Assembly: GCA_018970165.1 (NCBI GenBank)
Contig: JAGWWZ010000035.1
Span: 1 to 35,229 of the forward strand
DNA from: Planctomycetota bacterium
Lineage (GTDB): Bacteria > Planctomycetota > Planctomycetia > Pirellulales > Pirellulaceae
Direction: 5' to 3'
DNA: 35,229 nt
Shown here: positions 55 to 13,580 of the stretch, piece after piece
Layout: every line of letters starts with the position of its first letter
How positions within the stretch are numbered: the stretch's first letter is position 1
Translations under genes and position numbers: made by a program
Notes under the pieces: model-generated
The model's database searches: none
Seen by the model: the letters and a program-made list of their open reading frames with translations, nothing else
What the model was told of the DNA's origin: nothing

Positions 55-128
55 AGAGAGAAAATGGGTGGAGTCGTTGCTAGCGGTGATCCTTGGCTTC
101 CGGTCGCACAAGGCAACCGTGGAGCAAA

Positions 129-242
129 CAGCCACCCGAGTGCTTGCGCACTTCGGCTAACATTAAAACCAAACAGCCGCCGGTTGAAACCGGGACGAAG
201 AACCCGAACAGCCACCCGAGGGCTTGCGCCACTACGGGTAAC
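129..242 (-). repeat. Two outlying copies of the RAYT-associated REP family
   Basis: Copies at 129-164 and 209-242 begin with CAGCCACCCGAG and run through GCTTGCGC. The first ends in TTCGGCTAAC, matching the reverse-oriented units of the 9752-11265 array. The second ends in a degenerate ACGGGTAAC. Both are in the same orientation, separated by 44 bases holding a small GCCGGTTG/CAACCGG-type inverted region. They lie about 9.6 kb from the transposase gene. The stretch 243-574 is C/T-rich, contains no convincing gene, and is the leader of the DUF1501 operon. Confidence 0.7.
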
Positions 243-574
243 AAAAACCCAACGACGCGGAGCGTCGTTCCACTTTTTGCATCCTGCCCTTCCCTAAAGC
301 CTAACGTCTAAGGTCTAAAGCCTCCCCTTACACCCCTACATCCCCTACCCCTTTCCAGACTTTCCAACCCAGGAATTCCAACGAAAGTCACGATTCCCCG
401 GACTTGCGTCCGAACTACTTCTAAGACCATAATATAAGTCGGCTGAATGATTGGGCGTCTCACGGCCCACGCTCGCAATCGACTCGGCCTCACTCACCAC
501 CGGATAGGCTGTTGGATACAATGTCTCCAACGGTTCTATCTCCCGCCAATAACCTCCATTTCCGGAATCGCACC

Positions 575-1918
575 ATGCTCAATTTATTGGGTGGTTCGGA
601 TCGATTGTGCAGCGGCCTGTCGCGCCGCAGCTTCCTGTCGATTGGCTCGCTCTGCTTCGGGATGGGTGGCTTCACCCTCTCCGATCTCCTTCGTGCGGAA
701 GATGCGGCCGGGAAGCGGAACTCGCACAAAGGTCTCATCAACATATTCCTGGGCGGTGGTCCTCCCCATCAAGATATGTGGGAAATCAAAACCGATGCGC
801 CCGCCGAAATCCGCGGTGAGTTCAGCCCCATCGCAACCAATGTCCCAGGCATCCAAATCTGCGAAGTCTTTCCGCAACTGGCCCAACGGATGGATAAAGC
901 GGTCGTCATCCGATCTGTCGTCGGATGCAAGGATCGTCACGAATCGAACCAGTGCATGAGCGGCTGGTTCCCGGACGACCTGAAAGCGCTCGGCGGCCGA
1001 CCCTCGATCGGCTCGGCTGTCGCGAAACTGCATGGGACGGTCGACCCCGCCGTACCACCCTTCGTCGGACTCGCCGCCCGCACTTCGCACGTTCCCTGGT
1101 CCCACTCCGGCGATGCAGGTTTCCTCGGCGCAGCCTATTCGCCGTTCAAACCCGACGGACCGGGTATGGAGAACATGAAGCTGCACAACATCAGCCTCGA
1201 TCGATTGCGAGATCGACGTCGATTGCTGACCAGCCTCGATACCATGCGACGCGATATCGATACCAGTGGCATCATGGCGGGTATGGATGCCTTCGAACAA
1301 CGGGCCCTCGACGTGCTGACCAGCAGCAAACTGCTCGATGCCCTCGACCTGAGCAAAGAAGACCCGAAGATCGTCGAACGCTACGGCGATGGCAAACCCT
1401 ACAAATATCAATACGACGGTGCCCCAACCTGCAACGATCATCTGCTGATCGCTCGCCGTTTGATCGAAGCTGGCGTGCGCGTGGTGAGCCTCAGCTACGG
1501 CCGATGGGATTCGCACGGCCAAAACTTTGACCTGGTGCGCGACCACGGTACGAAACTCGATCAATGCCTCAGCGCCCTGATCGATGACCTCAGCGTTCGA
1601 GGGATGCTCGATGATGTCACCATCGTCGTCTGGGGCGAGTTCGGCCGCACACCGAAAATCAACAATGGTGCAGGTCGCGATCACTGGGCTCAAGTCAGCT
1701 GCGCCTATCTCGCCGGCGGCGGTATGCGAACCGGCCAAGCCATCGGCGCGACCAACCGCCTCGGTGAATATGCCAAGGAACGACCGGTCCATATGCAGGA
1801 AATCATCGCCACCCTCTATCACAACCTCGGGATCAACGTCGCTGCGTCCACCATCGTCGATCCCACAGGCCGACCTCAATTCCTGGTCGATCACGAACCA
1901 ATCCGCGAACTGATTTGA
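575..1918 (+). CDS. DUF1501 family exported protein (Tat substrate)
   Basis: A 447-residue protein of the DUF1501 family, which has an alkaline-phosphatase/sulfatase-like fold and is greatly expanded in planctomycetes; its substrate is unknown. The start at 575 places a twin-arginine signal, SRRSFL (residues 16-21), before a short hydrophobic stretch ending near LRAED. An in-frame ATG at 512 would add 21 residues without a visible benefit. Family signatures are visible: GGGPPHQDMW near residue 55, GCKDRHES near 120, SYGRWDSHG near 310, and near the C-terminus VVWGEFGRTP followed by GRDHW. It overlaps the stretch before the next gene (stop at 1918, next ATG choices from 1927). It is the first gene of a four-gene plus-strand operon; in planctomycetes DUF1501 genes regularly pair with DUF1549/DUF1553 genes, as here. 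Function beyond export is inferred only. Confidence 0.9.
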   Translation: MLNLLGGSDRLCSGLSRRSFLSIGSLCFGMGGFTLSDLLRAEDAAGKRNSHKGLINIFLGGGPPHQDMWEIKTDAPAEIRGEFSPIATNVPGIQICEVFPQLAQRMDKAVVIRSVVGCKDRHESNQCMSGWFPDDLKALGGRPSIGSAVAKLHGTVDPAVPPFVGLAARTSHVPWSHSGDAGFLGAAYSPFKPDGPGMENMKLHNISLDRLRDRRRLLTSLDTMRRDIDTSGIMAGMDAFEQRALDVLTSSKLLDALDLSKEDPKIVERYGDGKPYKYQYDGAPTCNDHLLIARRLIEAGVRVVSLSYGRWDSHGQNFDLVRDHGTKLDQCLSALIDDLSVRGMLDDVTIVVWGEFGRTPKINNGAGRDHWAQVSCAYLAGGGMRTGQAIGATNRLGEYAKERPVHMQEIIATLYHNLGINVAASTIVDPTGRPQFLVDHEPIRELI

Positions 1919-1974
1919 TCCATCCCATGACTATGACTCGATGCACTGCCGTGGGACCAAGGAACTGGATACCA

Positions 1975-4566
1975 ATGCGATTGCCTGCGATCGCTCTCGC
2001 GATGTTGTGTTGGTGCGTCGCGTCGCTCGTGAGCTTGATCTTGTTGTCCGATACGATCGCTACGATTGCGTATGCGGAAGAAGCGGCCACCACCGCCAAC
2101 AGTTCGCCACTCCGATTTGAACACGCGCGAGTGACCCTGAACGGACAAGATGCTCGCCATCAATTGCTGCTGAGTTTCGGTGGCGATACCGGCCCCGTGA
2201 TCGATCGAACACGCGAAGCGCGATTCGAATGTGAACCCGCAGGAATCGTAGCCGTCGATGCGCAAGGCCTGGTCGCTCCGATTCAGTCTGGTCATGCCCT
2301 GATCAAAGCAACCCTCCCCGATGGCACGACGGCGACTACCGAAGTCGATGTCCAAGTCGGCAGCAACGATGCGCTGGTCAATTTCCCGAACCAAATCGTG
2401 CCGATCTTTACCAAGTTCGGATGCAACGGAGGTGGTTGCCACGGCAAGATCGCGGGTCAGAACGGGTTCCGCCTTTCGCTCCTTGGGTTCGAACCTCGCG
2501 AAGACTATGAGCATCTCGTTCGCGAAACGCGTGGTCGACGATTGTTCCCCGCCGCACCCGATGCGAGCCTGCTGCTGCAAAAGTCGATCGGTTCGGTCCC
2601 TCACGGAGGTGGCCAACGGATGGATCTCGACTCGCATGAGTACCGTGTGCTGCGACGCTGGATCGCTCAAGCCATGCCCTATGGCAACGACAGCGATCGC
2701 AAAGTCACCGCAATCATCGTCACACCGAGTGTTCGCCAAATGGTCCGCAACTCGGAACAACAACTTTCGGTCACCGCGACCTACTCCGATGGATCGACCG
2801 AGGATATCACGCGGACAGCCCAATACGAATCGAACAACCTCGACATGGCCGAAGTCACCCAAGCAGGACTCGTGAAGGTCCGCGACTTGGCCGGCGAGGT
2901 ATCGATCATGGCTCGCTACCAAGGGCAAGTGACCGTCTTCCGCGCGAGCATTCCGCTCGGGACCTCGGTGACCGATTTCCCAATCGCTCGCGGGCCGGTC
3001 GATCAAGCCGTGTTTGCGAAACTGCAATCGCTCGGCATTCCGCCGTCGGGATTGTGCGATGACGCGACCTTCCTAAGACGGGCCACGCTCGATATCACGG
3101 GTCGTTTGCCAACCATTGCAGAGGTCGAAGCCTTTCAACGCGAGTCCGCTGCCTCCAACGATCCAGATACTGCTGCTGCGACGCAACGCCGACGCGAAGC
3201 CCTGGTCGATCGCCTGCTTCAAAGCGGTGAGTATGCGGATTACTTCGCGAGCAAGTGGTCGGCAATCCTTCGCAACCAACATGTGAACGAGGAGACTCGC
3301 TACGGTGCCTATGCATTCCATGATTGGATTCGGCAAAGCATCTTTGAGAATAAACCGATCGATCGATTCGTGCGTGAGTTGTTGACTGCATCGGGCGATG
3401 TCGAAACCAATCCGGCCGTGGTGTGGTTGCGTCAAGTCAGCAACACCGAATCGCGCATCGAGGACGCGGCCCAGTTGTTCCTAGGCCAACGTCTGCAATG
3501 CGCTCGATGTCACCATCACCCGTATGAGAAATGGGGACAGGGAGACTACTATCAAATGGCCGCGTTCTTCTCGACCGTTGAACGCAAGGATGGCGGCTCC
3601 GCATCCGAACCTCGCTTCGTATCGCGAGTCGCCAAGGCCGCGGCGCAGAATCCGAAATCGGGTCAAGCGATGTCTCCCGCAGGGCTCGATGCTCAGCAGA
3701 CGGAACTCAAGACCTACGATGATCCGCGGGCCGCACTCGCCGATTGGATGACCGCTCCGAACAATCCGTTCTTTGCCAAGTCGATCGCGAATCGTTATTG
3801 GAAACACTTCCTCGGTCGCGGATTGGTCGAGCCCGAGGATGATATGCGGATCACGAATCCTCCGAGCAACCCAGAACTGCTCGATGCACTGTCGCAGCAT
3901 CTGGTGCAATCCGGATTCGATACCCGATCGCTGATCCGCGCGATCTGCACATCGAGCACCTATCAGTTGTCGTCGTCCGCAAATGAACTGAATCTGCGCG
4001 ATACGAATTGCTATTCGCGGTACTATCCGAAGCGGCTCAACGCAGAGGTGTTGCTCGATGCGGTCGACGATATCTCGGGATCGCGAACACCGTTCGATCG
4101 CATGCCCGCTGGAACACGCGCGGTGCAGTTGCCGGATACGGCGTTTGCATCCTACTTCTTGACCGTGTTTGGACGACCCGATTCGTCGACAGCCTGCGAA
4201 TGCGAACGGATGAGTTCCGCAACACTCGCTCAGAGCCTGCATCTGCTCAACTCGAAAGAGATGCAATCTAAACTTGGCGCCGACGGTAGCTATGCCGCGC
4301 GATGGAGCGCTGCAGGGCAGAGCAATGCTGCGCCAACAGACGGTGGTGCGAATGCGGCGGCGTTGACCCCTGCGGAGCAATTGCGAGCCACCGCGCCGCA
4401 GCGGATCCGCGAACTGTATCTGCGAGCCTTTAGCCGCGAGCCGAGCCCATCGGAAGCAACCGTTGCTCTCGAATACCTCATTCAAAAATCCAACAATGTG
4501 CGGGAAGCCTACGAGGACTTGATCTGGGGAGTGGTCAACAGCAAAGAATTCCTCTTCAATCATTGA
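1975..4566 (+). CDS. DUF1549/DUF1553 cytochrome-like secreted protein with Big2 domains
   Basis: The start at 1975 gives 863 residues with a clear signal peptide (MRLPAIALAM onward, ending near AYAEE) and an AAGGAA upstream at 1959-1964. Starts at 1927 or a TTG at 1915 overlapping the previous stop are possible. In order: a bacterial Ig-like segment (about 45-125), a CNGGGCH motif (C150, C155, H156), a second Ig-like segment (about 245-330), DUF1549 (about 340-550) with CARCH (C509, C512, H513) followed by HHPYEKWGQGDYY, and DUF1553 to the C-terminus (WMTAPNNPFFAKSIANRYW, RLNAEVLLDA). The second motif fits CXXCH haem attachment; the first is CX4CH, which is recurrent in this family but not a classical haem site. 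The product should act outside the cytoplasm. Its biochemical role is not established. Confidence 0.9.
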   Translation: MRLPAIALAMLCWCVASLVSLILLSDTIATIAYAEEAATTANSSPLRFEHARVTLNGQDARHQLLLSFGGDTGPVIDRTREARFECEPAGIVAVDAQGLVAPIQSGHALIKATLPDGTTATTEVDVQVGSNDALVNFPNQIVPIFTKFGCNGGGCHGKIAGQNGFRLSLLGFEPREDYEHLVRETRGRRLFPAAPDASLLLQKSIGSVPHGGGQRMDLDSHEYRVLRRWIAQAMPYGNDSDRKVTAIIVTPSVRQMVRNSEQQLSVTATYSDGSTEDITRTAQYESNNLDMAEVTQAGLVKVRDLAGEVSIMARYQGQVTVFRASIPLGTSVTDFPIARGPVDQAVFAKLQSLGIPPSGLCDDATFLRRATLDITGRLPTIAEVEAFQRESAASNDPDTAAATQRRREALVDRLLQSGEYADYFASKWSAILRNQHVNEETRYGAYAFHDWIRQSIFENKPIDRFVRELLTASGDVETNPAVVWLRQVSNTESRIEDAAQLFLGQRLQCARCHHHPYEKWGQGDYYQMAAFFSTVERKDGGSASEPRFVSRVAKAAAQNPKSGQAMSPAGLDAQQTELKTYDDPRAALADWMTAPNNPFFAKSIANRYWKHFLGRGLVEPEDDMRITNPPSNPELLDALSQHLVQSGFDTRSLIRAICTSSTYQLSSSANELNLRDTNCYSRYYPKRLNAEVLLDAVDDISGSRTPFDRMPAGTRAVQLPDTAFASYFLTVFGRPDSSTACECERMSSATLAQSLHLLNSKEMQSKLGADGSYAARWSAAGQSNAAPTDGGANAAALTPAEQLRATAPQRIRELYLRAFSREPSPSEATVALEYLIQKSNNVREAYEDLIWGVVNSKEFLFNH

Positions 4567-6817: not shown

Positions 6818-9727
6818 ATGACGATGTTCTTCCGCTCGGTCCGCAGTTTCTCCCTATCGATCGCCTTATGCGCGATGGGAATCGTGTCGGTTCCGGTATT
6901 GGCCCAAGAGCCAGCACCCGCGCAGGCACAGCCTGCCGCGCAGCCTCAGCCTCCTGCGCAGCCTCAGCCTCCTGCGCAGCCTCAGCCTCTTGCGCAGGCA
7001 CCTGACTTTGTGAATCGTGTGCTGCCGCTGTTGCGAGCCAACTGCCAAGCGTGCCACAACGCGCAGAAGTCGGAGGGTGGCCTCAACTTGGAGACGTTGG
7101 CGTTGTTGACCAAGGGTGGAGACAGCGGTGCGTCGATCGTAGCTGGCAAGTCGGCTGAAAGTGAGTTGCTCGTGCGGATCTTGGCAACCGACGAGAGCGC
7201 GATGCCTCCGGCGAACAACTCCGTCGGTGCGAAGCGATTGACTCCTGAGGAAGCTGCGTTGGTTGCTGCGTGGATCGATGCAGGTGCGCCCGAGGGTGTG
7301 ATGGCTGCTGCCAACACCATGCAATGGAAACTGCTTCCCGATGGTGTGCGACCGATCTACACGATCGATGCGACGGGCGACAGCCAATTCGTCGCCGTGG
7401 GGCGAGGCAATCTGGCTTCGGTCTATCGCTGGCCGGGGCTGGATGGTGCCAAGGATGTCTTTCCGTTGATCGATCCTGCAACACAAGCGGAACTGCAAAC
7501 CACATCTCCGGTTTCTCATTTGGACTTGGTTCAGTCGATTGCGATCAGCCCGGATGGTTCGCGTGTTGCATCGGGCGGGTTTCGGGATCTGAAGATTTGG
7601 CGGCGCGATAGCGGTCCGTTCACGGACAGTTTGGTCGAAATGATGCGAGGCAGTCGATTGCTGCTCAGTTCTCCCGACAGCGCTCGGATCGCGAAGGCAA
7701 CGCATACTCCCACGATTGAGATCCTGAAGACTTCGCCCGCTCAGGTGACACATCGTTTGATTTGTCCTGCTCCAGTTACCGGTATGGCGTGGTCTCAAGA
7801 TGGTCTTCGATTGATCGTGGCGACTGCGGATACTTCGGTGCATCAATTTGTTATGAATTTTGAGGAGGGGGCTGAAGTCCGCGAGGTCCGACCTCAATGG
7901 ACCGCCAAAGTGGAACAGGCGCTGACCGATTTGGTGGTTGTCGATGCTCAATCGTTCGTAGGGCGAACCGCAGATCGCAAACTGCAATGGTGGACGGCGA
8001 CTCCGGGGGCCGATGCGAGTCAAGTGACTCTGGCGAAACAAGAACGATTGCTGGATATCGCCGATTCGACGGGGTTGTGCCGATACGAAGAGGGTGGCCA
8101 GCCACGATTGGCGATTGCGCTGGCTGATGGTTCTGTCCGGATCGTGAACGGGGCCGATGGAGCAACGATTCGCGCGCTAGCGCACGGTGCGGCGATCGCC
8201 GCGATCGCTGCGTCGGCCGACAATACCAAGCTGGTGACTGCAGGTGCCGACGGTGTGATCAAGGCATGGAATGTTGCTGATGGTGCGATGCTGTGGGAAC
8301 AGCGAAACGATTACGAATGGGAACGCAAACTGGAGCGGGCCGAGGCGCTGGCTGCTCGGCAAAAGGCGAAAGTGGATCGAGGCACGGCCAAGGTACCGGA
8401 ACTGGAAAAAGCCAAGCAAGCCGAGATGGATGCTCAGACCAAACTGCAAGCGACTCGTGCGATGATCGCGGAGGATCTCGGTAAGAAGCAAGGGGAACTC
8501 GAAGCCCAAGATAAATCGGTTGCCGAAGGGCAGGCAGCGATGGATGCCGCGAAGAAAGCGGTTGAAGAAGCGATGAAGCGGGTCGAGCAAACTCAAAAGG
8601 ATCTCGAGGCTCGTCAGCAAAAACAGCTCGCTGCGCAAAAAGCCAAACAAGATGTCGAGATGAAGCTGGCGACCATGGACAAGACGATCGCGGGTGCTGC
8701 CGCCGCGATCGAAAAGGCCGCTGCAACGTTAGCTCAATTCCAAGCATCGCTGGAACAGGAGAAGGTGAAACTTGCAACGCTCGACCAAGATTCGGCGCAG
8801 ACCAAGATGAGTCAAACACTGGTGCCAGCGGTGAAGACTTTGTTCACCTCCGATCATCGATTTGTGGTGACCGCCCATAACGACGGCTCGATTCGATGGA
8901 TGCGGGCCGATAAGGGAACGACGCAGGCAATCATGCGCGATGGATTCGCGAATTACGTCGGCTGTGTCGCGACGCAGCAGGGAGCATTGCTGGCCGCAAC
9001 CGAAGATGGTCGCGCTGCTGGTTGGCAGTTCGGAAATCGTTGGCGATTGGAGCGAGTGATCGGCAACGCCAAAGAATCCCCATTCAGTGATCGAATCACC
9101 GCACTCGATTGGAGTCAAGATGGCGAGATGCTTGTCGTAGGGAGTGGCGCTCCGAGTCGCTTCGGTGATTTGAAATTGGTTCGGGCTAATGATGGAGCGA
9201 TCGTTAAGGATTGGGGGCAGGTCCACAGCGATTCGATTTTGGTGGCTCGATTCTCACCGGACGGAACGATGATCGCGACGGGAGCCGCGGACAAACTGGT
9301 GCGACTGCATCGTGTAGATGCCGACGTCCCCGCACGGGCCCTAGAGGGTCACACTCATCACGTGCTCGGCGTTGCGTGGCATGACGATGGTCATTGGTTG
9401 GCAAGTTCAAGCGCGGATAATAGCGTCAAGGTCTGGGATGTGGAGACCGGTTCGGCGGTTCGAACGATCCCTGGGTTTGGCAAGGAGGTGACGGCGTTAT
9501 CGTTTGTGGGTCGATCTACGCAAATCTTATCGACTTCGGCCGATCAGCAGACGAGGTTGCATGATGCAGCCAACGGGAACTTGATCCGAGCGATGGGTGG
9601 TCCTGGGGATGCGATGTACTGTGCGATCGCCGCGGGCAAGTCGGCGTTAGCATTCGCAGGCGGCCAAGAAGGAGTCCTATGGGTCTGGCAACTCGACAAC
9701 GGCCAAGCGCTGCAACAGTTGAAGTAG
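6818..9727 (+). CDS. c-type cytochrome (PSCyt1) / WD40 / coiled-coil protein
   Basis: The reading frame is open from 6542, but the start is placed at 6818, where a signal peptide begins (MTMFFRSVRSFSLSIALCAM, cleavage about A29); this gives 969 residues. Residues 30-61 are a Pro/Gln/Ala linker encoded by three 18-bp repeats. A PSCyt1-type domain follows with CQACH (C76, C79, H80) and the partner segment SEGGLNLETL. WD40-like repeats occupy about 160-500 (SPDGSRVASGG, DGVIKAWNVADGAML). A long Lys/Glu/Ala/Gln coiled coil covers about 501-661. More WD40 repeats follow to the end (FSPDGTMIATGAADKLVRL, SSSADNSVKVWDVETG). It closes the four-gene operon. Haem binding and a scaffold role are inferred from the family. 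The coil splitting the propeller is the notable feature. Confidence 0.88.
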   Translation: MTMFFRSVRSFSLSIALCAMGIVSVPVLAQEPAPAQAQPAAQPQPPAQPQPPAQPQPLAQAPDFVNRVLPLLRANCQACHNAQKSEGGLNLETLALLTKGGDSGASIVAGKSAESELLVRILATDESAMPPANNSVGAKRLTPEEAALVAAWIDAGAPEGVMAAANTMQWKLLPDGVRPIYTIDATGDSQFVAVGRGNLASVYRWPGLDGAKDVFPLIDPATQAELQTTSPVSHLDLVQSIAISPDGSRVASGGFRDLKIWRRDSGPFTDSLVEMMRGSRLLLSSPDSARIAKATHTPTIEILKTSPAQVTHRLICPAPVTGMAWSQDGLRLIVATADTSVHQFVMNFEEGAEVREVRPQWTAKVEQALTDLVVVDAQSFVGRTADRKLQWWTATPGADASQVTLAKQERLLDIADSTGLCRYEEGGQPRLAIALADGSVRIVNGADGATIRALAHGAAIAAIAASADNTKLVTAGADGVIKAWNVADGAMLWEQRNDYEWERKLERAEALAARQKAKVDRGTAKVPELEKAKQAEMDAQTKLQATRAMIAEDLGKKQGELEAQDKSVAEGQAAMDAAKKAVEEAMKRVEQTQKDLEARQQKQLAAQKAKQDVEMKLATMDKTIAGAAAAIEKAAATLAQFQASLEQEKVKLATLDQDSAQTKMSQTLVPAVKTLFTSDHRFVVTAHNDGSIRWMRADKGTTQAIMRDGFANYVGCVATQQGALLAATEDGRAAGWQFGNRWRLERVIGNAKESPFSDRITALDWSQDGEMLVVGSGAPSRFGDLKLVRANDGAIVKDWGQVHSDSILVARFSPDGTMIATGAADKLVRLHRVDADVPARALEGHTHHVLGVAWHDDGHWLASSSADNSVKVWDVETGSAVRTIPGFGKEVTALSFVGRSTQILSTSADQQTRLHDAANGNLIRAMGGPGDAMYCAIAAGKSALAFAGGQEGVLWVWQLDNGQALQQLK
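6941..6994 (+). repeat. In-frame 18-bp tandem repeat, three copies
   Basis: Three copies of CAGCCTCAGCCTCCTGCG (6941-6958, 6959-6976, 6977-6994; the last differs by one base) encode QPQPPA units in the linker between the signal peptide and the cytochrome domain. Copy number is a likely site of length change between strains. Confidence 0.9.
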
Positions 9728-9751
9728 TCGGCAGTGGGCTTTTTGGTTTTT

Positions 9752-10233
9752 GTTAGCCGAAGTGCGCGAGCACTCGGGTGGGAACTGAGGTAAACATTGC
9801 GATGTCCTGCGCACTTCCACCCGGCTGCTTGCGCATCTCGGCTAACATTTTATGGGTGCTTTGCACCGGGCGGATTTGGATTTAATGCTAGCCGAATGGG
9901 CGCGAGCCCTCGGGTTTGAAGTGAGGCAAACGTGGCGATGTCTTGCGCGCTTCCACCCGGATGCTTGCGCATCTCGGCTAACATTTTATGGGTGCTTCGC
10001 ACCGGGCGGATTTGGATTTAATGCTAGCCGAATGGGCGCGAACCCTCGGGTGGCTGTTGGTTCTAATGTTAGCCGAAGTGCGCGAGCACTCGGGTGGGAA
10101 CTGAGGTAGACATTGCCATGTCGTACACACTTCCACCCGGCTGCTTGCGCATCTCGGCTAACATTTTGTGGGTGCTTTGCACCGGGCGGATTTGGACTTA
10201 ATGCTAGCCGAATGGGCGCGAGCACTCGCGTGG
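9752..10233. repeat. RAYT-flanking REP array, left half (about 135-bp period)
   Basis: Forward REP-like elements (GTTAGCCGAA...GCGCGAGC...CTCGGGTGG, about 30 bases) start at 9752, 9887, 10023, 10068 and 10203. Reverse copies (CCACCCGG...GCTTGCGC...CGGCTAAC) lie at 9817-9846, 9953-9982 and 10133-10162. Between a forward and its reverse copy is a conserved stretch of about 35 bases beginning GAACTGAGG or GAAGTGAGG. Between a reverse copy and the next forward one is a conserved stretch of about 40 bases with a small hairpin, GGTGC-TTT-GCACC (for example 9855-9867). Complete units repeat every 135-136 bases. No protein is credible here. Confidence 0.9.
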
Positions 10234-10279
10234 CTGTTTCACTGCGGTGACTCATGTCTTACAGGAAGGACTTCCAAAA

Positions 10280-10789
10280 ATGTATAGCGATCCACTGTCT
10301 TTCTTCATTACGTGGACTTGTTATGGAACTTGGCTACCTGGCGACGATCGCGGTTGGACAAAATGGCAAAAGGGAGAGAGTATCCCACAACCGCGTCTTG
10401 CTGATTGGTGTCGTGAGCACATGACTGAGAACCCACTATTTTTAGATGAAAACCAACGGAACACCGTCAATGATACGGTTGCTCTGCATTGCCAAATCCG
10501 TGGATGGTATCTTCACGCAGTGAACTGCCGATCGAATCACTGCCACACCGTTGTTACAGCTAGTAGTCATGATGGTGAACAAGTACGAGATCAGTTGAAG
10601 TCATGGTGCAAACGCAAGCTCAAGGATGCGGACAAGTCTCGCGGGATCGACGATACGGGGCTACGCGAGAAATGGTGGACTGGTAACGGTAGCGTCAGAT
10701 ACTTGTTTGACGAGGAATCGCTCGAAGCAGCCATACGATATACGCTTGAGGCACAGGATGCCGGTGGCTCGACAGGTGCCTTGGATTAG
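10280..10789 (+). CDS. REP-associated tyrosine transposase (RAYT, Y1/HUH family)
   Basis: A 169-residue single-strand DNA transposase-like protein. An AGGAAGGA at 10263-10270 lies 9 bases before the ATG at 10280, making this a better start than the GTG at 10247. Visible signatures are ITWTCYGTWLPGDDRGW at the N-terminus, LHAVNCRSNHCHTVV (the HUH metal-binding motif as HCH), SWCKRKLKDAD, WWTGNGSVRYLFDEESL and the C-terminal helix AIRYTLEAQD carrying the likely catalytic tyrosine. The length is usual for the family, so the gene appears intact. In other bacteria RAYTs recognise and cleave REP hairpins and are usually single-copy and flanked by REPs, as here. The gene is more A/T-rich than its neighbours, suggesting transfer. 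It lies between two directly oriented REPs (ending 10233 and starting 10810). Confidence 0.88.
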   Translation: MYSDPLSFFITWTCYGTWLPGDDRGWTKWQKGESIPQPRLADWCREHMTENPLFLDENQRNTVNDTVALHCQIRGWYLHAVNCRSNHCHTVVTASSHDGEQVRDQLKSWCKRKLKDADKSRGIDDTGLREKWWTGNGSVRYLFDEESLEAAIRYTLEAQDAGGSTGALD

Positions 10790-10809
10790 CAAAAAAGCAT
10801 GAATTCGTT

Positions 10810-11265
10810 GTTAGCGGAATGAGCGCGAGCACCCGGGTGGCTGTTCGGATTTTGTTAGCCGAATGGGCGCGAGCCCTCGGGTGGGAACTGAGGCAAACGT
10901 GGCCATGTCGTACACACTTCAACCCGGATGCTTGCGCATCTCGGCTAACATTTTATGGGTGCTTCGCACCGAAGAGTGGGGGCCAATGTTAGCCGAATGG
11001 GCGCGAGCCCTCGGGTGGGAACTGGGGTAGACATTGCGATGTCGTACACACTTCCACCCGGATGCTTGCGCATCTCGGCTAACATTTTACGGATGCTTCG
11101 CACCGGGCGAATTTGGGTTTCATGTTAGCCGAACGGGCGCGAGCCATCTTGCCCTACGTGAATCATCGAGGCATCCATCAACCGGAACGCGCTAGCGTCT
11201 GGTTCGAGCCGTCAGGAACATTGCCACGTTTGCCACAGTTCAAACCGGGGGCTTGCGCCGGCTAA
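10810..11265. repeat. RAYT-flanking REP array, right half
   Basis: Forward elements start at 10810, 10854, 10988 and 11124 (the last truncated after GCGCGAGCC at 11145). Reverse copies lie at 10920-10949 and 11054-11083, with a degenerate one at 11241-11265 (AAACCGGGGGCTTGCGCCGG). Starts at 10854, 10988 and 11124 keep the 134-136-base period of the left half. The conserved inter-element stretches, including the GGTGC...GCACC-type hairpin, are present at 10957-10970 in altered form. The array decays towards 11265. Confidence 0.88.
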
Positions 11266-11267
11266 CG

Positions 11268-13531: not shown

Positions 13532-13538
13532 GTTGGCC

Positions 13539-13580
13539 CAGCGAAGCTGGCAAACCCACCAGCGAAGCTGGCAAACCCAC
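13539..13580. repeat. Perfect 21-bp tandem duplication
   Basis: Two identical copies (13539-13559 and 13560-13580) of a 21-base unit each contain the palindrome CCAGC-GAA-GCTGG or its core AGC-GAA-GCT. It lies between the sulfatase terminator and the second REP family, in a stretch with no gene. Confidence 0.85.

Follow-up and report, generated by a model that had tools for sequence, protein, structure and literature searches.

The window analysed here, 35,229 nt of contig JAGWWZ010000035.1 from a Planctomycetota bacterium, contains an array of REP sequences on both sides of a single-copy gene for a predicted HUH/Y1 nuclease of 169 aa. We read this locus, with a probability of roughly 0.8, as a class 3 REPtron whose nuclease would move REPINs in trans and around whose gene REPINs were multiplied as blocks. 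The initial annotation had already described a regular REP array with a 135-base period around a RAYT gene. This observation is real and was partly confirmed, and the interpretation given to it is partly supported: a RAYT-like gene, of class 3 type, does sit within a REPIN/BIME-like mosaic.

Anatomy of the array

The array lies between a WD40/planctomycete-cytochrome gene (stop codon 9725-9727) and a sulfatase gene (ORF from 11618), in a stretch that contains 14 REPs and a single ORF. Nine of the REPs are forward, with starts at 9752, 9887, 10023, 10068, 10203, 10810, 10854, 10988 and 11124, and five are inverted, with starts at 9819, 9955, 10135, 10922 and 11056; five base-shuffled windows gave no REP matches. 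Most of these REPs belong to five units, each composed of a forward REP, a core, an inverted REP and a linker, with REPINs of 97-98 nt and linkers of 36-38 nt (Table 1). All five units have the same orientation and, together with several single REPs, they flank the gene. A GGCTGTT tail marks the single REPs before U3 and at either side of the gene.

Table 1. Features of the REPIN array and its surroundings in the window
Feature	Position	Strand
Decayed REPIN and REP singles, same family, outside the array, near the left end of the window	78..243	
Unit U1: REPIN 9751-9847 and 38-nt linker, hairpin 9855-9867	9751..9885	+
Unit U2: REPIN 9886-9983 and 38-nt linker, hairpin 9991-10003	9886..10021	+
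Single forward REP (10023-10051), short GGCTGTT tail	10022..10066	+
Unit U3: REPIN 10067-10163 and 38-nt linker, hairpin 10171-10183	10067..10201	+
Single forward REP (10203-10231), GGCTGTT tail, immediately upstream of the gene	10202..10238	+
Class 3-type TnpA-Y1 / RAYT-like HUH nuclease gene, 169 aa	10280..10789	+
Single forward REP (10810-10838), CGGA foot, GGCTGTT tail, immediately downstream of the gene	10808..10852	+
Unit U4: REPIN 10853-10950 and 36-nt linker (type common to other loci), hairpin 10958-10970	10853..10986	+
Unit U5: REPIN 10987-11084 and 38-nt linker, hairpin with one stem change	10987..11122	+
Array end: broken forward REP and decayed REPIN half (model match 11176-11267)	11123..11267	+

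Successive REPs of the array start 67, 68, 68, 68, 45, 67, 68, 607 (across the gene), 44, 68, 66, 68 and 68 nt apart, so the 135-nt period is mostly the result of a REP orientation that alternates every 66-68 nt. The tandem-repeat check that had been proposed for the region came out positive: TRF reported periods of 136 (2.2 copies, 9754-10053), 180 (2.0 copies, 9876-10238) and 134 (1.9 copies, 10853-11105), plus a 45-base period. Eight starts of complete units had originally been listed. All eight are forward REPs and one further forward REP, at 10810, had been missed, but only five of them (9752, 9887, 10068, 10854 and 10988) begin complete units. At 10023 and 10203 there is just one REP with a short tail, and the REP at 11124 is broken and has a decayed REPIN half behind it. 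Similarly, a spacing said to be always 134-136 nt holds within runs but not between 10023 and 10068 (45 nt) or between 10810 and 10854 (44 nt), and the small hairpin ascribed to every unit is exact in four of the five (loop TTT in two, TTC in two), the fifth carrying one stem change.

The stretch 9737-10047 aligns with 10839-11148 at 85% identity over 312 columns; the same two-unit block is therefore present in the same orientation on both sides of the gene. As linkers and orientation are shared and the two halves are repeated, the array arose by block duplication, which bears out the earlier suggestion that whole units were amplified.

The 169-aa nuclease

The gene has a single copy in its own genome, and its ATG is preceded by the purine-rich sequence AGGAAGGA. 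The protein carries the HUH motif as HCH at residues 87-89, the catalytic Tyr154 and Gln159. In alignments of 24 and 74 proteins H89 and Y154 are invariant and H87 is found in at least 90%; Q159 is invariant in the 74 aligned proteins, and all of the 75 stop-free relatives have the Y....Q motif. As the window's protein stays under the cut-offs of the family models (NF047646 19.7 bits, cut-off 80; Y1_Tnp 14.8 bits, cut-off 23), its assignment is based on relatives, motifs and predicted structure. Among the 24 aligned proteins, the window's included, 19 match Y1_Tnp, 17 the NCBIfam IS200 model and 15 the RAYT model (E up to 0.01).

A search for solved relatives by sequence was discarded, as it gave one insignificant IS200 match only (E 0.38). 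An AlphaFold2 model of the protein (pLDDT 89.4, pTM 0.84) was compared with known structures by Foldseek: the leading hits were ISDra2, IS608 and other IS200-type TnpA proteins, and E. coli TnpA-REP (4er8) was found at rank 15 with E 2.2e-3 and a probability of 1.00. TM-scores by query length were modest, 0.49-0.53 for the best hits and 4er8. The product is most probably an HUH/Y1 nuclease that acts on single-stranded DNA.

Class 3 TnpA-Y1 proteins were described in 2018 as occurring mainly in Planctomycetes, with a Y----Q motif and with CnGA-foot hairpins around the gene that can be multi-copy in the genome (PMC6006769). The present locus fits this class by its Y....Q motif, its planctomycete host and the several CnGA-foot hairpins at the gene. 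It does not fit class 2 RAYTs (TnpA-REP), given its NF047646 score and a foot that is CCGA (once CGGA) and not GTAG or GTGG. Nor does it behave as an IS200/IS605 insertion sequence: the gene is single-copy, and 72,556 plasmid records contained no match to it. The same genome also holds one match to the RAYT model NF047646 with E 4e-19, probably another gene because the window's protein reaches just 19.7 bits.

The REPIN family in the genome

In the 5.2-Mb, 330-contig assembly a REPIN model matched 67 places, some full and others decayed, spread over 41 contigs. This number takes in REPIN halves in decay and poor matches (approximate E-values as high as 0.01), and it may still be low because the first look at copy numbers in the own genome scored 150 of 2689, 40 of 57 and 33 of 57 candidates (150 of 2689 for the REPIN model). 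The inverted REP pair in one hairpin unit is thus a dispersed, multi-copy element, as expected of a REPIN. Ten pairs of REPIN starts are less than 250 nt apart, four of them in the array. When 67 places were put at random into a tenth of the genome the mean was 2.1 close pairs, and ten were reached in 0 of 5000 trials; for the remaining 60 places at least six close pairs occurred in 32 of 5000 trials. Nine of the ten close pairs share their orientation, the exception being the decayed half at 11176. A second 134-nt REPIN pair, with a different linker, is located on contig C74.

Covariation in the REP stems is strong. Of all stem cells 95.7% are paired, and double-sided changes were counted in 16 cells compared with 4.5 in shuffles (0 of 500 shuffles as high); they affect 5 of 16 stem pairs, with variants such as GTGC/GCAC, GGGC/GCCC and CAGC/GCTG among others, and sliding the partner strand abolishes pairing. 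Among 25 aligned REPINs, 19 of 24 forward REPs and 24 of 25 inverted ones have the CnGA foot; in the array itself 14 of 14 REPs have a CCGA or CGGA foot, the latter once. In four folds covering three units, REPINs folded as single-stranded DNA and compared with shuffles gave z-scores of -4.0 to -7.9, the lowest for 10067-10163 on the + strand. The hairpins whose single-stranded folding was to be checked are accordingly well supported for the REPIN, while the linker folds just slightly better than shuffles (z -1.9 and -2.4). The best REPIN fold is one long hairpin, although the form that is cleaved need not be this one.

The small linker hairpin was also considered as a general repeat, an idea that was rejected: the exact sequence GGTGCTTYGCACC occurs seven times in the genome, in all seven cases at a distance of exactly 7 nt from a REPIN, on the side of its inverted REP, and therefore belongs to the REPIN family. 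Behind the hairpin the linker continues in one of two types. A GGGCGGATTTGG-like part is common to U1, U2, U3 and nearly U5 and was found in 0 of 17 dispersed copies with flanks inspected; a GARGAGYGGGG-like part is found in U4 and on contigs C79 and C74. On average the array units are 90% identical to each other and 81% identical to 20 dispersed copies. A search of the genome for the 135-nt unit, suggested earlier, hence gave a divided answer: the full unit with the array-type linker was found here only, whereas the REPIN and the REPIN with hairpin also occur elsewhere. A known structured RNA was rejected as well, since no Rfam family exceeded its gathering score (E up to 0.1); the only match was to a plant microRNA family, with 25.9 bits against a gathering score of 62.

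The family is specific at the level of the genus. The window's REPIN was sought in 27 genomes of the genus and found in three, its own, G025 (one place, together with an 84%-identical partial gene) and G023 (one 27-nt match); 24 of the 26 other genomes gave no match. The REPIN unit of another locus, L048, likewise has 75 matches in its own genome G026 and 0, 0, 4 and 0 in four others. REPINs are narrow in range, unlike class 3 REPtrons.

REPIN places are within 250 nt of a contig end in 13 of 53 cases on contigs of known length (about 3% expected). Assembly breaks thus track the family, and because REPINs are so often near contig ends, arrays may be collapsed in the assembly. Contigs with REPINs at their ends are C95, C57, C116, C230, C234, C257, C165, C253, C93 and C90.

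Relatives of the nuclease gene

Matches to the gene were obtained in 30 of 60 genomes searched, its own included; a fragment in G004 (L058), a fragment in G053:C48 and the second pieces of split genes were left out. A scan of named genomes confirmed 441 places, of which the best 80 were kept. The titles of these best 80 of 441 are planctomycete apart from three labelled just 'bacterium', and five of the 80 have a stop within the matched stretch. Four relatives in the complete genome G036 are mutually divergent and not copies of one another.

In a tree of 42 rows the 15 members of the genus, the window's gene included, are scattered, requiring 11 changes of which at least seven are forced by well-supported branches; after shuffling of the genus labels the result was equally good in 111 of 500 cases. 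Such REPtrons were thus exchanged or sorted among lineages. The window's gene belongs to a supported set of nine rows (100/98), with L129 and L128 nearest to it; seven of the nine are not from the genus, and some of these carry the label Planctomycetaceae.

CnGA feet were found in 15 of 61 relatives by a strict hairpin rule. Counted by hairpins, several of which may share a locus, CnGA is the commonest foot around relatives, with 62 of 370 (16.8% versus 6.3% in controls). A strict scan for CnGA and a CGG tail proved too narrow for the relatives, and self-comparison was used instead.

Arrays at other loci

About 2.3 kb around each gene was compared with itself in two sets of 41 loci (the own one included) and 61 loci. 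Loci with flanks below 400 nt were dropped (8 of 49 and 19 of 80, respectively) and genes with a stop retained; the sets are not independent, as the second partly repeats the first with the same contigs. Direct repeats of at least 40 bits bridge the gene in 29 of 41 and 54 of 61 loci but in 1 of 110 control windows, which were taken from 20 regions and are unmatched in intergenic content to the gene loci. For inverted bridging repeats the numbers are 28 of 41 and 47 of 61 versus 0 of 110, and for strong tandem repeats (100 bits) 10 of 41 and 19 of 61 versus 2 of 110.

For comparison we used RAYT loci above the NF047646 cut-off from the same order (29 usable out of 30), which are best matches and not a random draw and are called class 2 type from this model alone. 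Here direct bridging repeats were found in 16 of 29, inverted ones in 18 of 29 and strong tandems in 4 of 29 loci. Arrays are therefore a property of REPtrons generally. Direct bridging at 40 bits is more frequent for class 3 (54 of 61 versus 16 of 29, p 8e-4); stronger bridging repeats were rejected as a class 3 trait (p 0.11 at 60 bits, 0.47 at 100 bits), as were tandem arrays special to class 3 (19 of 61 versus 4 of 29 at 100 bits, p 0.12).

Bigger arrays than the present one exist. One G036 locus combines two repeat lengths: on one side of the gene a 29-nt unit has 5.1 copies and a 90-nt unit 5.9, and on the opposite side a 29-nt unit has 3.0 copies and a 91-nt unit 4.5. In Neorhodopirellula pilleata a 65-nt repeat with 9.4 copies faces a 32-nt repeat with 13.8 copies across the gene. 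At L133 (Pirellulaceae MAG M30B19, 1833-4489), with a 62%-identical gene, REP units of 35-38 nt are nested with units of about 210-245 nt on both sides. Several relatives, L031, L038 and L114 among them, have as their main repeat an inverted pair near the gene, on either side of it. In addition, contig 1 of G036 contains at 3985232-3986208 a tandem array of nine near-full and two partial 91-nt units without a match to the gene; it is made of the REPIN family that also forms the gene-bearing array, from which it is 31 kb distant, and has the opposite orientation.

Proposed mechanism and alternatives

By analogy with TnpA-REP and the IS200/IS605 enzymes, the nuclease would recognise REP hairpins by their CCGA (CnGA) foot and stem when these are exposed as single strands, e.g. 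on the lagging-strand template, and would cut beside them through Tyr154. It could thereby move REPINs in trans to many sites in the genome. Within the array, the REPIN together with hairpin and linker would have been multiplied in tandem as a block, leaving the gene between halves of the same orientation. Growth may have proceeded by duplication between same-orientation copies, through slippage or unequal crossing-over. What seeded the array was perhaps cutting by the nuclease, or else re-insertion next to a REP already present.

One may ask instead whether the REPINs landed singly by the gene, their regular spacing being a by-product of insertion-site choice, for example always at a fixed distance from the foot of an existing REP. 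This would agree with an even REP spacing of 66-67 nt at contigs C74 and C326 too, and with the mixture of unit types (GTGC stems in U1 and U3, GGGC stems in U2, U4 and U5), as if their origins differed. However, single landings would hardly give units of one orientation that share a linker missing from the dispersed copies inspected and resemble each other more than those copies, nor blocks that align across the gene, and we regard such independent insertions as quite unlikely. It is also unlikely that gene and flanking REPs are a transposon of the IS200/IS605 type, with REPINs as its deletion derivatives, even though REPs of the same orientation stand directly at both sides of the gene, the inverted main pairs at L031, L038 and L114 would suit such an element, and class 3 has been proposed as a possible IS-REPtron intermediate (PMC6006769). 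IS608 and ISDra2 do share the HUH/Y1 fold and hairpins whose 5' foot is read on the single strand (PMC6006769), but IS200/IS605 elements transpose as whole elements, whereas here only the repeats are multi-copy: one gene faces 67 REPIN places, plasmid records hold no match, and even the four relatives within G036 are not copies.

That the hairpins mainly serve as RNA or DNA structures regulating expression of the gene or of its neighbours, mobility having been lost, seems very unlikely to us. A REP ends 48 nt ahead of the start codon, the folds are very stable, and REP hairpins have been suggested to down-regulate RAYTs (PMC3733652), so some effect on expression may exist; such a role leaves the dispersed, genus-restricted copies and the tandem growth unexplained, and no Rfam family comes near its gathering score. 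Block multiplication around the gene of a putatively REPIN-moving nuclease remains our preferred explanation.

Ordered tandem clusters of REPINs are known from P. fluorescens SBW25, where Bertels and Rainey reported in 2011 16 clusters of nearly identical REPINs with their flanking sequence, as well as REPIN clusters adjoining each of its three RAYTs (PMC3116915). Tandem near-identical REPINs and flanks beside a single-copy RAYT, with dispersed REPINs elsewhere, are common to both systems; SBW25 differs in the type of RAYT and, as described, in clusters that adjoin the gene instead of enclosing it between two array halves. E. coli BIMEs, often consecutive tandem copies (PMC8266576), share inverted REP pairs, tandem mosaics and a cognate nuclease with our locus, whereas the E. 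coli REPtron has a GTAG foot, bulged stems and three REPINs at the gene (PMC8266576, PMC6006769). The view that the present array is far more regular than those known was consequently abandoned, and its uniqueness is rejected by these reports and by the comparison with other RAYTs. As other RAYT loci are bracketed too and tandem REPIN clusters have been published since 2011, we consider the locus a well-developed REPtron of a known kind.

Compared with class 3 as described from 10 proteins (24 with additions) and 'several atypical secondary structures' (PMC6006769), the window's locus adds REPINs, tandem units with a linker hairpin and bracketing of the gene in the same orientation. In a full-text literature search we recognised no publication that describes tandem arrays of REPINs either for class 3 or from Planctomycetes, and a systematic bracketing of class 3 genes by arrays appears undescribed in the literature searched. 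The plethora of tyrosine transposase genes with flanking repeats reported for R. baltica (PMC3733652) may include the class 3 kind. Class 3 systems have hardly been studied, yet a single motif scan sufficed to confirm 441 relatives. The way in which REPs and REPINs multiply is not yet settled; class 3 arrays hold a readable record of local amplification, and comparison of strains and assays with these small enzymes make it testable whether a nuclease amplifies repeats beside its own gene. It is doubtful, though conceivable, that class 3 genes of Planctomycetota lie as a rule inside a same-orientation tandem array of their own REPINs whose growth the nuclease drives. If so, such an array would be a nursery of new REPIN variants with a built-in exit: recombination between its halves would delete the gene and leave a 'solo array'. 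The gene-free array in G036 is possibly one left after such a loss.

Other repeats

A second palindrome, ACGACGC-GGA-GCGTCGT-G, is found at 19 places in the own genome with up to two mismatches (e.g. G000:C57:8263-8280 and C277:3820-3837), standing by itself at some of them and lying immediately 3' of a REPIN at others. In the window, an 18-base tandem repeat of 4.3 copies (6920-6997) encodes a Pro-Gln rich stretch of the WD40/cytochrome protein, and a perfect 21-base repeat of two copies (13538-13580) is located just past the sulfatase gene.
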